Of a DNA stretch of 64,000 nucleotides, positions 6,396-23,737 are shown one piece after another. The position numbers were made by a program, and so were the translations under genes. Source of the stretch: Sulfurimonas sp. hsl 1-7 (GTDB lineage: Bacteria > Campylobacterota > Campylobacteria > Campylobacterales > Sulfurimonadaceae); assembly GCF_030577135.1 (NCBI RefSeq), contig NZ_JAUIRR010000005.1:64113-128112 (forward strand), written 5' to 3'. The notes beneath the pieces are model-generated. The model was not told the DNA's origin and did no database searches. It was given only the letters and a program-made list of their open reading frames with translations. Numbering within the stretch: position 1 is the stretch's first letter; every line of letters starts with the position of its first letter.

Positions 6396-7804
6396 CAGTT
6401 TTTATCTAAGTCCTCTAAAGAGTGGATAAGTGCTCCGAGTTTGTTTTTTACTTCAAGATACTCTAACTCATCGATACTGTCGGCAACAACACCTGCACCA
6501 GCTTGTAGTACCACTTTTTCAGGTTTTACAAGGGCAGTTCTAATTGTAATGGCACTATCCATATTCCCGTCAAACCCGAAGTAACCTATACTTCCACTGT
6601 AAAAACCGCGTTTAAGTCCCTCATACTCGGCAATAAGCTCCATTGCACGAATTTTTGGTGCTCCCGTCATTGTCCCTGCCGTGAATGTTGCCATAAAAAG
6701 GTCAAACATATCTTTATCTTCTTGAAGTTCGGCTACAACATCAGATACGATATGCATAACGTGAGAATAACGTTCAATATGCATCATATTCTCAACTTTT
6801 ACGCTTCCTGTCTTTGCTACACGTCCAACATCGTTACGACCTAAATCGATAAGCATAAGGTGTTCAGCTAACTCTTTTGGATCAGCTAAGAGCTCCTCTT
6901 CAAGTTCCTTGTCGCGCTCTTTTGTTTTACCGCGTTTTCTAGTACCTGCAATAGGGCGGAGCAATAATTCACCCTCATCAAGTCTTACCATAACTTCAGG
7001 TGAAGAACCCACGATACTAAAATCTTCGTACTCCATTAAAAACATATATGGAGATGGATTTTTTGCACGTAAAATTCGGTAAAAACTAAATGGATCAACT
7101 TTGATGTTTCTTGTAAAGCGGTTTGTCATAAGGATCTGAAAAACATCACCCGATTTAATCATCTCTTTTGATTTCGCGATCATATCAAAGAACTTCTCTT
7201 TAGTATGGGCAAAACTTCCCTTGTCATCACCGATATTGTGTACACGGTGTTTATATACGTAAGTTGATTTGAGATGGTTTTCAAGATCATCAAACTGCTT
7301 TGCATAATCTTCTAAAGTAGAAACAAGTGTTATCTTGTTGTTTTTATGTGAATAGACAAGTACCATTTTCGGCAGAATCAGGTCAAGATCGGGAGTATCT
7401 AGCTCATCTTCAAGATTATCCATATAAGGCTTGAGAACAGGTTCAAACACTTTTACCATATCGTAACCGATGTAACCGATAAAACCGTCTACATAACCGA
7501 TATTAAGTTCTCTTGCTATCTCTTTATAGATTGAAGAGTCTATCTTTGCATAATAGTTTTTTAAAAATGTAAAAGGGTTCTCATCTTTTGTATGTTTAGT
7601 GCCGTTTTGATCAGTATAAACTGTTTGATCATTAATATACTGTAATCTTTCTCTTGCACCTATACATATAAAGCTGTAATTACCTTCGCTTTGACTGGCA
7701 CTTTCAAATAAATATGTAATCTCACCCTCAAAAAATTCTTTTATTTTTGAATAGACCGCTATGGGTGCTAGCTGGTCTAACGTAAACTGTTTATTATGTA
7801 TCAA
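6395..7804 (-). CDS. trpE: Anthranilate synthase component I family protein
   Basis: Chorismate-utilising enzyme; as TrpE it makes anthranilate using ammonia from a TrpG subunit not in this window. 469 aa. The N-terminal half has an LFESAS motif close to the LLESAE tryptophan-feedback motif. The catalytic half carries IAGTRKRGKTKERD, LIDLGRNDVGRVA, SHVMHIVSDV, TFTAGTMTGAPKIRAM and RGFYSGSIGYFGFDG, all standard for the family. The start is TTG, with AGG eight to ten bases upstream. Aminodeoxychorismate synthase (PabB) is the nearest alternative, but length and the N-terminal motif favour TrpE. It lies between the SPOR gene and aroE. Confidence 0.88.
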   Translation of the reverse strand: MIHNKQFTLDQLAPIAVYSKIKEFFEGEITYLFESASQSEGNYSFICIGARERLQYINDQTVYTDQNGTKHTKDENPFTFLKNYYAKIDSSIYKEIARELNIGYVDGFIGYIGYDMVKVFEPVLKPYMDNLEDELDTPDLDLILPKMVLVYSHKNNKITLVSTLEDYAKQFDDLENHLKSTYVYKHRVHNIGDDKGSFAHTKEKFFDMIAKSKEMIKSGDVFQILMTNRFTRNIKVDPFSFYRILRAKNPSPYMFLMEYEDFSIVGSSPEVMVRLDEGELLLRPIAGTRKRGKTKERDKELEEELLADPKELAEHLMLIDLGRNDVGRVAKTGSVKVENMMHIERYSHVMHIVSDVVAELQEDKDMFDLFMATFTAGTMTGAPKIRAMELIAEYEGLKRGFYSGSIGYFGFDGNMDSAITIRTALVKPEKVVLQAGAGVVADSIDELEYLEVKNKLGALIHSLEDLDKN

Positions 7805-20504: not shown

Positions 20505-21389
20505 TTATTTTTTTGTTGGAATTATAACTTTTTTTAGCTGTAAGAACACTTTTTCAAGGCCCAATACAACAGCGCCAACGATCATTCCTACAAGAAGCTC
20601 CCCTATAATTGAAGGAAGATTGTGTAAGAGTTCATGGATCTGGTGAACATTGTGCATGTAAATTCCACCAGCTACTAAAAGCATTGCCAGTGTCCCGATC
20701 ACAGTCAGAGCTTTGATCACTTTTGGAAGGGAAGTTACGAGCAGTAAACCGATGCTTTTACGAAGTCTATTTTCCTCTTTTGCCGTTGCAATTAGATGAA
20801 AACCTATATCATCCATTCGAACGATGAGGGTAACGATCCCATACACCCCGATCGTCGCTAAAAAGGCTACAATACTTACAGCGATCAGCTGTGTTGCAAA
20901 AGTTTCATTTATAACGATGCCAAGAGCCATGATTACAATTTCAATTGAGAGGATAAAGTCCGTTTTTATTGCAGACTTGATCTTCTCTTTTTCTATATAA
21001 AGTATCTCATCTTCAGTGAGTTGTAGATCCGGGTCTTCATGCTTATGGTGTTTGTGAGGCATGATCCACTCTAAAATTTTTTCAGCTCCCTCGAAAGCAA
21101 GATAAGCACCACCGAGCATAAGTATAGGAATAATTGCCCACGAAGCAAAATAGCTAAGCAAAAAGGCAAGAGGTAAGATAATGAGTTTATTGATAAATGA
21201 GCCTTTTGTGATCGCCCATAGTACAGGAATCTCACGTGAAGCTGCAAAGTTGGAGGCTTTTTGGGCATTTACGGCTAAATCATCCCCTAAAATTCCCGCG
21301 GTTTTTTTTGTAGCAACTTTTGTCATAGAAGCTGCGTCGTCTAAAAGAGTTGCGATGTCGTCAAAAACGGCAAAAAAACCACCTGTCAT
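20505..21389 (-). CDS. DUF808 family inner-membrane protein (YedI-like)
   Basis: 294 aa from the ATG at 21389, chosen because GGAGGAG lies eight bases upstream and the sequence from there (MTGGFFAVFDDIATLLDD) matches the family N-terminus. The MTKVATKKTAGILGDDLAVNA stretch is the DUF808 signature. Several hydrophobic segments follow (about 75-105, 165-210, 235-260, 268-285). The family is widespread in Proteobacteria and has no assigned function. The start overlaps the previous gene's stop as ATGA, so the two are coupled. Confidence 0.85.
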   Translation of the reverse strand: MTGGFFAVFDDIATLLDDAASMTKVATKKTAGILGDDLAVNAQKASNFAASREIPVLWAITKGSFINKLIILPLAFLLSYFASWAIIPILMLGGAYLAFEGAEKILEWIMPHKHHKHEDPDLQLTEDEILYIEKEKIKSAIKTDFILSIEIVIMALGIVINETFATQLIAVSIVAFLATIGVYGIVTLIVRMDDIGFHLIATAKEENRLRKSIGLLLVTSLPKVIKALTVIGTLAMLLVAGGIYMHNVHQIHELLHNLPSIIGELLVGMIVGAVVLGLEKVFLQLKKVIIPTKK

Positions 21390-21703
21390 TGTTTGATCTC
21401 CTCCGGATAGCAGAACTGCTTGGCAGTGTACCATGTTGCTATCCCCGTATCATTGTAGTTGTACTCTCTTTGTTTAACAGGAATAGAATCATTTCGTAGC
21501 TTTGATCGGATAATCCCGATAACAATAAATCCTAAAAGAAGTGTTAAAACGGCTATAAACCATCCCTCTAAGTACCATACAATAAGTGTAATAGGGTAGA
21601 TACTAAATTGTAAGAATATTCTAATTGCAAGTGCAATTATTTTACATCTTTTAGTCAGCAGTTTTGGTGTGGGTTCCATCATATCTATAAAATTTATGTC
21701 CAT
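21386..21703 (-). CDS. Small membrane protein, unknown
   Basis: 105 aa with a hydrophobic central region (about 24-65) that can form two membrane segments separated by WYLEGW, and a polar C-terminal tail with Tyr and Cys (TAKQFCYPEE). I recognise no family. It starts a two-gene unit with the DUF808 gene (4-bp overlap), which suggests the products are used together. Confidence 0.65.
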   Translation of the reverse strand: MDINFIDMMEPTPKLLTKRCKIIALAIRIFLQFSIYPITLIVWYLEGWFIAVLTLLLGFIVIGIIRSKLRNDSIPVKQREYNYNDTGIATWYTAKQFCYPEEIKQ

Positions 21704-21744
21704 GTCTGAATTATAGCCTAAAATAGTAATTTTTCAGTAGACTA

Positions 21745-21777
21745 AATAAACTTTAGTTGAATTGACTAAAGTTTATT
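21745..21777. promoter_or_regulatory. Perfect 13-bp dyad upstream of htpG (HspR/HAIR-like operator candidate)
   Basis: AATAAACTTTAGT, 7 bases (TGAATTG), ACTAAAGTTTATT. The inner part, CTTTAGT-N7-ACTAAAG, has the size and spacing of the HAIR element (CTTGAGT-N7-ACTCAAG) bound by HspR, with one change per arm. It lies just upstream of the -35 of htpG. A third half-site, ACTAAA, is at 21741-21746. No hspR gene is in the window, so the regulator is inferred. Confidence 0.6.
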
Positions 21778-21785
21778 GATAGTAT

Positions 21786-21815
21786 TTGCATTCATTAACA
21801 AATTTTTGCTAGAAT
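21786..21815 (+). promoter_or_regulatory. Promoter of htpG
   Basis: TTGCAT (21786-21791), 18 bases, TAGAAT (21810-21815), preceded by TGC like an extended -10. It gives a leader of about 23 bases with the ribosome-binding site AAGGAAG. Confidence 0.55.
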
Positions 21816-21844: not shown

Positions 21845-23737
21845 ATGGCAACACATAAGTTTCAAACAGAAGCAAATCAAATACTACATTTAATGATACA
21901 TTCACTCTATTCAAATAAAGAGATATTTTTAAGAGAGCTTATCTCTAATGCTTCAGATGCATTAGATAAACTTAATATGCTCCATTTAACTGATGACAAA
22001 TACAAAACTATAAATTTTAATCCTCGTATAGAACTAGTACCGAACAAAGATGAAAAAACATTAACAATTATAGACAGCGGTATAGGTATGAACGAAGAGG
22101 ACCTAATGAACAACTTAGGTACGATCGCAAAATCGGGTACAAAAGCGTTTTTAGAGTCTTTAAGCGGTGACCAAAAACAAGATTCTCAACTTATCGGACA
22201 GTTCGGTGTAGGTTTCTACGCAGCGTTTATGGTAGCAGGAAAAGTTGAGGTTACTACAAAAAAAGCGGGTGAAGATAAAGCTTTCAAATGGACAAGTAAC
22301 GGTGACGGCGAGTTTGATATCGAAGAGGCATCAAAAGATTCACACGGAACGGAGATCAAACTTTTCCTAAACGATGATGAAACAGAGTTTACAGAAACTT
22401 TTAGACTTGAGTCTTTAATTAAAAAATACTCAAACCACATTCCGTTTGCAATCTTTATGGATAAAGAGAACCATATCCCTGCAAAAACAGATGATGAAGG
22501 GAATGAAACAGAGAGCGCAAAAACTGAAGTAAACAATGAGCAGATCAACAAAGCAAATGCACTTTGGAGCATTGCAAAATCTGACGTTACTGATGAAGAG
22601 TATAAAGATTTCTATCAAACAATCGCGCACTCAAGTGAAGAGCCGTTAACTTGGATGCACAATAAAGCAGAAGGTGCTATTGAGTATACAACTTTATTTT
22701 ATATCCCAAGCAAAGCACCAATGGATATCTTCAGAGTTGATTATCAATCGGGTATTAAACTTTACATCAACCGTGTATTTATTACAGATGATGAAAAAGA
22801 GCTTATGCCGACATATTTAAGATTTTTACGCGGTGTAATTGATTCAAAAGATTTACCGCTGAATGTTTCTCGTGAGATCTTACAAAGCAATGCTGTAATG
22901 GCAAAGATCAAAAATGCTTCAGTAAAGAAAGTACTTTCTGAACTAGCAAAAATGATGAAAAAATCTCCTGAAAAGTACGATACATTCTACAAAGAGTTTG
23001 GAAACGTTCTTAAAGAGGGACTTTATAACGACTTTGCAAACCGTGAGAAAATCTTAGAATTATTAAAATTCAATACATTAAATTCAGACGAGCAGACATC
23101 AATCGAAGAGTTTGTAAAAAATGTAGATGAAGAGAAAAAAGAGATCTACTACATCACTGGAAAATCTTCACTGGATATGCTAAAAAAATCTCCTGTGTTA
23201 GAGAAGTTTAAAGCAAAAAATATCGATGTACTAGTTCTAAATGAAGAGGTAGATACAATAATCTTCCCAATGGTAACTGAGTATAAAGAGTATAAACTTG
23301 TAAACGTTACTGATGCGAAGCTTGAAGAGAGCGAAGAGGAACAAAAAGCCAAAGAGGAGCTTTCTAAAGAGTTTGAAGGTTTTACAACTGAGATGAAAGA
23401 GCTTCTTGGTGAAGAGGTAAAAGCTGTTGAGGTAGCACCTGAACTTGTTGAATCGGCTGTTGCAATTAAAGCTGACAAAGAAGATCCTGCATATATGATG
23501 GCACAGATGATGAAACAGATGGGACAAGGCGGTGATGTTGCAGAACCGGCTCCTATTTTACAGGTAAATCCTAACCACGATCTGATCAAAAAGCTAAAAG
23601 ACTCGGCTGACCAAAATTTAATTGCAGATGCTGCACATGTACTACTTGATCAAGCAAAACTGTTTGACGGTCAAGAGTTGAAAGATACTGCAGATTTTGT
23701 TACAAGATTGAACAGAATTATCACAAAAGCATTATAA
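21845..23737 (+). CDS. htpG: Chaperone protein HtpG (Hsp90)
   Basis: ATP-dependent Hsp90 chaperone, dimeric and cytosolic. 630 aa. GHKL ATPase domain with LISNASDALDKL, DSGIGM and GQFGVGFYA; middle domain with the ATPase arginine in PLNVSREILQ (about 338-347); C-terminal dimerisation domain. There is no MEEVD tail, as expected in bacteria. AAGGAAG lies at good spacing from the ATG. A perfect dyad and a good promoter precede it, pointing to heat-shock control by an HspR-type repressor. Confidence 0.97.
   Translation: MATHKFQTEANQILHLMIHSLYSNKEIFLRELISNASDALDKLNMLHLTDDKYKTINFNPRIELVPNKDEKTLTIIDSGIGMNEEDLMNNLGTIAKSGTKAFLESLSGDQKQDSQLIGQFGVGFYAAFMVAGKVEVTTKKAGEDKAFKWTSNGDGEFDIEEASKDSHGTEIKLFLNDDETEFTETFRLESLIKKYSNHIPFAIFMDKENHIPAKTDDEGNETESAKTEVNNEQINKANALWSIAKSDVTDEEYKDFYQTIAHSSEEPLTWMHNKAEGAIEYTTLFYIPSKAPMDIFRVDYQSGIKLYINRVFITDDEKELMPTYLRFLRGVIDSKDLPLNVSREILQSNAVMAKIKNASVKKVLSELAKMMKKSPEKYDTFYKEFGNVLKEGLYNDFANREKILELLKFNTLNSDEQTSIEEFVKNVDEEKKEIYYITGKSSLDMLKKSPVLEKFKAKNIDVLVLNEEVDTIIFPMVTEYKEYKLVNVTDAKLEESEEEQKAKEELSKEFEGFTTEMKELLGEEVKAVEVAPELVESAVAIKADKEDPAYMMAQMMKQMGQGGDVAEPAPILQVNPNHDLIKKLKDSADQNLIADAAHVLLDQAKLFDGQELKDTADFVTRLNRIITKAL

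Follow-up and report, generated by a model that had tools for sequence, protein, structure and literature searches.

Upstream of the gene for an HSP90-family chaperone, htpG, the genome of Sulfurimonas sp. hsl 1-7 carries a long inverted repeat, which raises the question of what reads this element and, in particular, whether it is an operator of the chaperone-gene regulator HspR. The locus lies in a stretch of 64,000 nucleotides that was analysed as a whole (hereafter the window) and contains the following features:

21386..21703, minus strand: divergent ORF of 105 aa, no Pfam match; a homologue is present in 59 of 78 htpG upstream regions
21740..21746, plus strand: outer left half-site GACTAAA, 24 bp 5' of the right inner arm GACTAAA
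21745..21777, no strand assigned: central dyad with perfect 13-bp arms and an N7 spacer, scoring at least 11/14 in 75 of 79 htpG upstream regions
21751-21771, within the central dyad: HAIR-like core CTTTAGT-N7-ACTAAAG
21776..21780, plus strand: outer right half-site TTGAT, 24 bp 3' of the left inner arm, immediately before the -35
21786..21791, plus strand: -35 element TTGCAT, predicted from sequence; columns 35-39 kept as TTGCA in relatives
21810..21815, plus strand: predicted -10 element TAGAAT, at N18 spacing from the -35; TAnaAT kept in relatives
21845..23737, plus strand: htpG, HSP90-family chaperone of 630 aa (Pfam HSP90, 3.5e-112)

The dyad consists of AATAAACTTTAGT (21745-21757), the 7-nt spacer TGAATTG and ACTAAAGTTTATT (21765-21777), exactly the perfect 13-bp repeat with a 7-base spacer ahead of the htpG -35 that an earlier note on this DNA had described, and its 3' end falls 8 bp short of the predicted -35. 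The same note had compared the core to the HAIR layout with one symmetric change per arm; 12 of 14 positions are identical to canonical HAIR (CTTGAGT-N7-ACTCAAG), the spacing is exact, and in relatives the one base changed in each arm alternates with the HAIR base (see below). The exact core has no second copy, either in the window or in the whole 2.28-Mb genome. Against the degenerate pattern CTTKAGT-N7-ACTMAAG, the dyad scores 14/14, a value never reached when this 150-bp region was shuffled 1000 times with dinucleotides preserved; when the 150 bp upstream of each of 54 ORFs in the window were scored, the runner-up had 11. Because a search of the window that allowed up to 3 mismatches returned matches at chance level, the near-perfect form alone is informative and the loose search was dropped; the htpG dyad is placed beyond chance by its phylogenetic conservation.

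This conservation was assessed by comparing the sequences upstream of htpG in Sulfurimonas-type genomes, 78 regions plus the window's own (79 in total). A score of at least 11/14 is attained in 75 of the 79 regions vs 4.6% of shuffles, and a score of at least 12/14 in 66 vs 0.5%. The position of the site is nearly constant across most Sulfurimonas-type htpG genes, and the aligned operators yield the consensus ACTAAAnAAACTTTAGTC-N5-GACTAAAGTTnnTTGAT, followed at a near-fixed distance by the promoter TTGCAnctATTAACTTTTTTTgcTAaaAT. Transcription of htpG probably starts at about 21822, which would put the centre of the dyad (21761) near -61. Within the interval between the -35 and -10 elements (window 21790-21815), ATTAACTTTTTTT is better conserved in relatives than the -10 itself; the window copy is ATTAACAAATTTTT.

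The inner pair of arms, all that the earlier note had recognised, is sound as described there, but two flanking half-sites 24 bp out had been missed. The operator thus comprises four half-sites, the inner pair, an outer ACTAAA (21741-21746) and an outer TTGAT (21776-21780), each outer one spaced 24 bp from the inner arm that points the same way. In 76 aligned sequences, the columns of the outer left half-site (relative positions -10 to -5) have a conservation of 0.8-1.9 bits and those of the outer right half-site (columns 25-29) 1.1-1.9 bits. At groES, the counterpart of the latter is TTGA, the -35 element itself.

The genome encodes an HspR homologue, on the presence of which the HspR reading had been made to depend: a 124-aa protein that matches the NCBIfam HspR equivalog NF047375 with 114.7 bits (cut-off 105) and is encoded directly 3' of cbpA (DnaJ-like), forming a cbpA-hspR operon. 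Within the genus, HspR was found in 52 of 60 genomes, or in 36 of 38 if only those of good quality are counted; within the class, it was found in 120 of 121. The only class genome without detectable HspR (G101) also lacks the htpG site, and all three sampled genomes of its sister genus carry CTTTAGCCAAGTTTAATAAAG; this joint absence counts as a single event. HrcA, acting at CIRCE (TTAGCACTC-N9-GAGTGCTAA), is another repressor system for chaperone genes. The htpG dyad differs from CIRCE in sequence, and the genome (99.99% complete) contains no PF01628 match for HrcA.

In this genome, related sites are also found upstream of other chaperone genes. The cbpA-hspR promoter contains CTTGATT-GACATGC-ACTCAAG with the -35 TTGACA inside it (L106 496-516), a near-canonical HAIR that is conserved in the genus. 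At grpE-dnaK, CTTGACA-TTATTAC-ACTCAAT (L111 4870-4890), likewise near-canonical HAIR, overlaps TTGACA-N17-TATAAT so as to cover the -35, and a second site, CTTGACA-TAACTAG-ACTAAAC, is located 50 bp upstream (L111 4820-4840). The groES region, GCTAAACAAA-CTTTAGT-CATAGTG-ACTAAGA-GTG-TTGACA (L114 1395-1434), repeats the htpG layout, with the -35 as the last half-site. In shuffle tests of the upstream dyads, values of 0/1000, 0.001, 0.004 and 0.041 were obtained for htpG, cbpA, groES and grpE (one site), respectively; the upstream regions of clpB and dnaJ contain no significant dyad (0.69 and 0.22). Hence, the expectation that similar dyads would precede other chaperone genes was borne out at groES, grpE-dnaK and hspR's own operon and failed at clpB. 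Upstream of dnaJ (L113, complement ~7156-7230), a lone half-site CTTTAGTC is followed by TAAAGTT just before the -10, with no full dyad.

A profile built from htpG operators (an alignment that includes the window's own site and no groES site) was run against the whole 2.28-Mb genome and ranked htpG first and groES second (E 2e-5). The weaker matches lay near a GGDEF-EAL gene (E 0.005), within a coding region and at the upstream site of grpE-dnaK (E 0.12). The first of these (G000:C1:461251) lies ~110 bp before the GGDEF-EAL gene, overlaps the end of the preceding ORF and was set aside as probably due to chance. Within the genus, eight of the genomes sampled encode HspR but have no groES site. 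The site is also missing from G043 (99% complete), in which no HspR was found. In about one third of the sampled genus, groES has no HAIR-like site and its promoter region is different (L173, L176, L177, L180, L187, L188, L190, L191, L194), so that groES control appears to have been lost or replaced in this subgroup.

The strongest clue to the identity of the reader comes from position 4 of the arms. Among 74 htpG sites, the left arm has T in 58 and G in 16, never A or C, and at the matching base the right arm has A in 64 and C in 10, never G or T; in both arms, the sole alternative is the base of canonical HAIR. In relatives, TTTAGT and TTGAGT arms replace each other at one and the same site: groES of one relative has GTTGAGT-ATCATTT-ACTCAAG, and in two relatives TTGAGT is paired with ACTAAA. 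Similarly, the upstream grpE-dnaK site of the present genome combines a CTTGA arm with an ACTAAA arm. This restricted alternation favours HspR over another protein.

Situated at a chaperone-gene promoter and conserved in the genus, the htpG dyad is most likely the main HAIR-type HspR operator of this gene, which would be repressed by HspR and derepressed by heat. The HspR/HAIR interpretation put forward earlier is thus well supported, though unproven, by the encoded HspR, the related chaperone sites and the interchangeable arm types. An HspR dimer would occupy CTTTAGT-N7-ACTAAAG and recruit further subunits to the flanking ACTAAA and TTGAT half-sites in a cooperative array; the complex would extend to the upstream edge of the -35 and hinder RNA polymerase. 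Heat or unfolded protein would then lower HspR activity and switch on htpG along with groESL, grpE-dnaK and cbpA-hspR. We infer HspR binding, repression by that binding, cooperativity and heat release from the conserved dyad and half-sites, the presence of an hspR gene, the similar elements at the cbpA-hspR, groES and grpE-dnaK promoters and the alternation at position 4.

The most serious competitor is a different DNA-binding protein, perhaps an activator, that would read CTTTAGTC-N5-GACTAAAG at htpG and groESL, with HspR confined to the canonical HAIR sites at cbpA-hspR and grpE-dnaK. The cbpA promoters keep the canonical ACTCAA and the htpG and groES promoters mostly have ACTAAA, so that T/A prevails over G/C at arm position 4 in the latter two, a split that speaks against a single regulator and could reflect two different proteins. 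A position near -61 is usual for an activator (the dyad centre would be in a Class I-like position) but also for upstream repressor sites. Taken together, the ACTAAA preference, the activator-suited position, the lack of a site at clpB and the losses at groES leave a different regulator a small chance, against which stand the HAIR base as the only alternative at position 4, the nearly canonical HAIR at groES of one relative and the joining of CTTGA and ACTAAA arms upstream of grpE-dnaK; moreover, no candidate protein was found. The version in which this array is read by an undescribed regulator, so that control of the chaperone genes in Sulfurimonas-type bacteria would be shared by two repressors or by one repressor and one activator, even though HrcA is missing, appears just as doubtful, if not slightly more so.

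That the dyad acts as a nucleic-acid hairpin (an RNA leader structure, a terminator or a DNA cruciform), and not as a protein site, is highly improbable. The strand does fold well as single-stranded DNA (-10.7 kcal/mol, z -5.8), and the pair -4/24 covaries (see below). However, the dyad sits upstream of a conserved promoter, no T run follows it, and the same half-sites are also found singly outside the dyad. The core arms, furthermore, change independently: complementarity at pair 3/17 is 0.68 vs 0.71 expected, a lack of covariation that led us to reject a hairpin for the dyad core and that fits one protein subunit reading each arm, unlike an RNA stem. At the outer edges of the arms (positions -4/24 relative to the core start), complementarity is 0.44 vs 0.24 expected, which possibly results from relatedness.

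In the 69 loci where the nearest neighbour of htpG could be read, this is a divergent homologue of the 105-aa ORF in 54 cases; in 10 the adjacent gene is codirectional and in 5 it is divergent but different, and the operator is kept whichever of these adjoins htpG upstream; it therefore belongs to htpG and is not tied to the 105-aa ORF. Thus, the notion that the element serves the small divergent ORF, although it sits between the two divergent genes, is scarcely credible, given its persistence at those 15 loci with other neighbours and its recurrence at groES.

The HspR operator proposed here is best read as following the plan known from Campylobacter jejuni and Helicobacter pylori, with a strong centre at about -61 and half-sites on both sides, the right one near the -35. 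HspR of C. jejuni binds several high- and low-affinity sites, a strong central HAIR-like repeat, in which CTT is most conserved, and weaker flanking ones that require the central site (PMC7464140). As in the present genome, hspR is encoded with cbpA, a 21-bp inverted repeat is close to CTTGAGT-N7-ACTCAAG, and sites are found at the gro, cbp and hrc (dnaK operon) promoters (PMC7464140); the outer ACTAAA and TTGAT half-sites appear to resemble the C. jejuni operators. In contrast, the C. jejuni sites have been footprinted, with HrcA cooperating at gro and hrc and a further site at clp (PMC7464140), whereas in the present case a search for HrcA found none, a site is present at htpG but not at clpB, and the htpG and groES arms are mostly TTTAGT/ACTAAA. 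In H. pylori, the operators at cbp, gro and hrc each contain one central HAIR-like repeat, which nucleates HspR binding that spreads both ways (PMC6102357); recognisable half-sites flank the centre in Sulfurimonas, unlike in that species. HspR of Streptomyces coelicolor shares the TTGAGY-N7-ACTCAA layout and represses the dnaK operon but differs in that hspR lies inside this operon and that the reported HspR targets are the dnaK operon, clpB, lon and a few others (PMC2687793).

The papers that define the HspR operators of Helicobacter and Campylobacter do not name htpG (PMC6102357; PMC7464140), and, among the papers outside subscription that were consulted, those that name both HspR and htpG yielded no report of HspR acting on htpG. 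Judged from these sites, the present case would extend the known HspR regulon to a new target, htpG, and to a genus new to it, where the operator differs slightly; neither the mechanism nor the kind of system is new. If this is true, HtpG (the bacterial Hsp90) would be under HspR in free-living Campylobacterota without HrcA, with the chaperone response in the hands of a single repressor. The sites that occur naturally offer ready material for measuring how T or G at position 4 of the arm is read by HspR and how much the flanking half-sites contribute to binding.

In other families of the class, the htpG dyad is weak or absent in f3 and f9-f12 and clear in f4, in genus g11 of f7 and in parts of f2 and f6. 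Genus g12 of f3 has no dyad of the kind that precedes htpG elsewhere in that family (L221, L223-L225, L218-L219, L273-L274), namely another conserved repeat, approximately CTTGATA-N7-TATCAAG, in which the sequence varies and the symmetry is kept. In three of three genomes from genus g11 of f7 (G067, G087 and G163; L280-L282), both a CIRCE-like repeat (TTAGCACTC...GTGCTAA) and CTTTAGCCAAGTTTAATAAAG are located before htpG, suggesting that this gene may be under joint HrcA and HspR control there.
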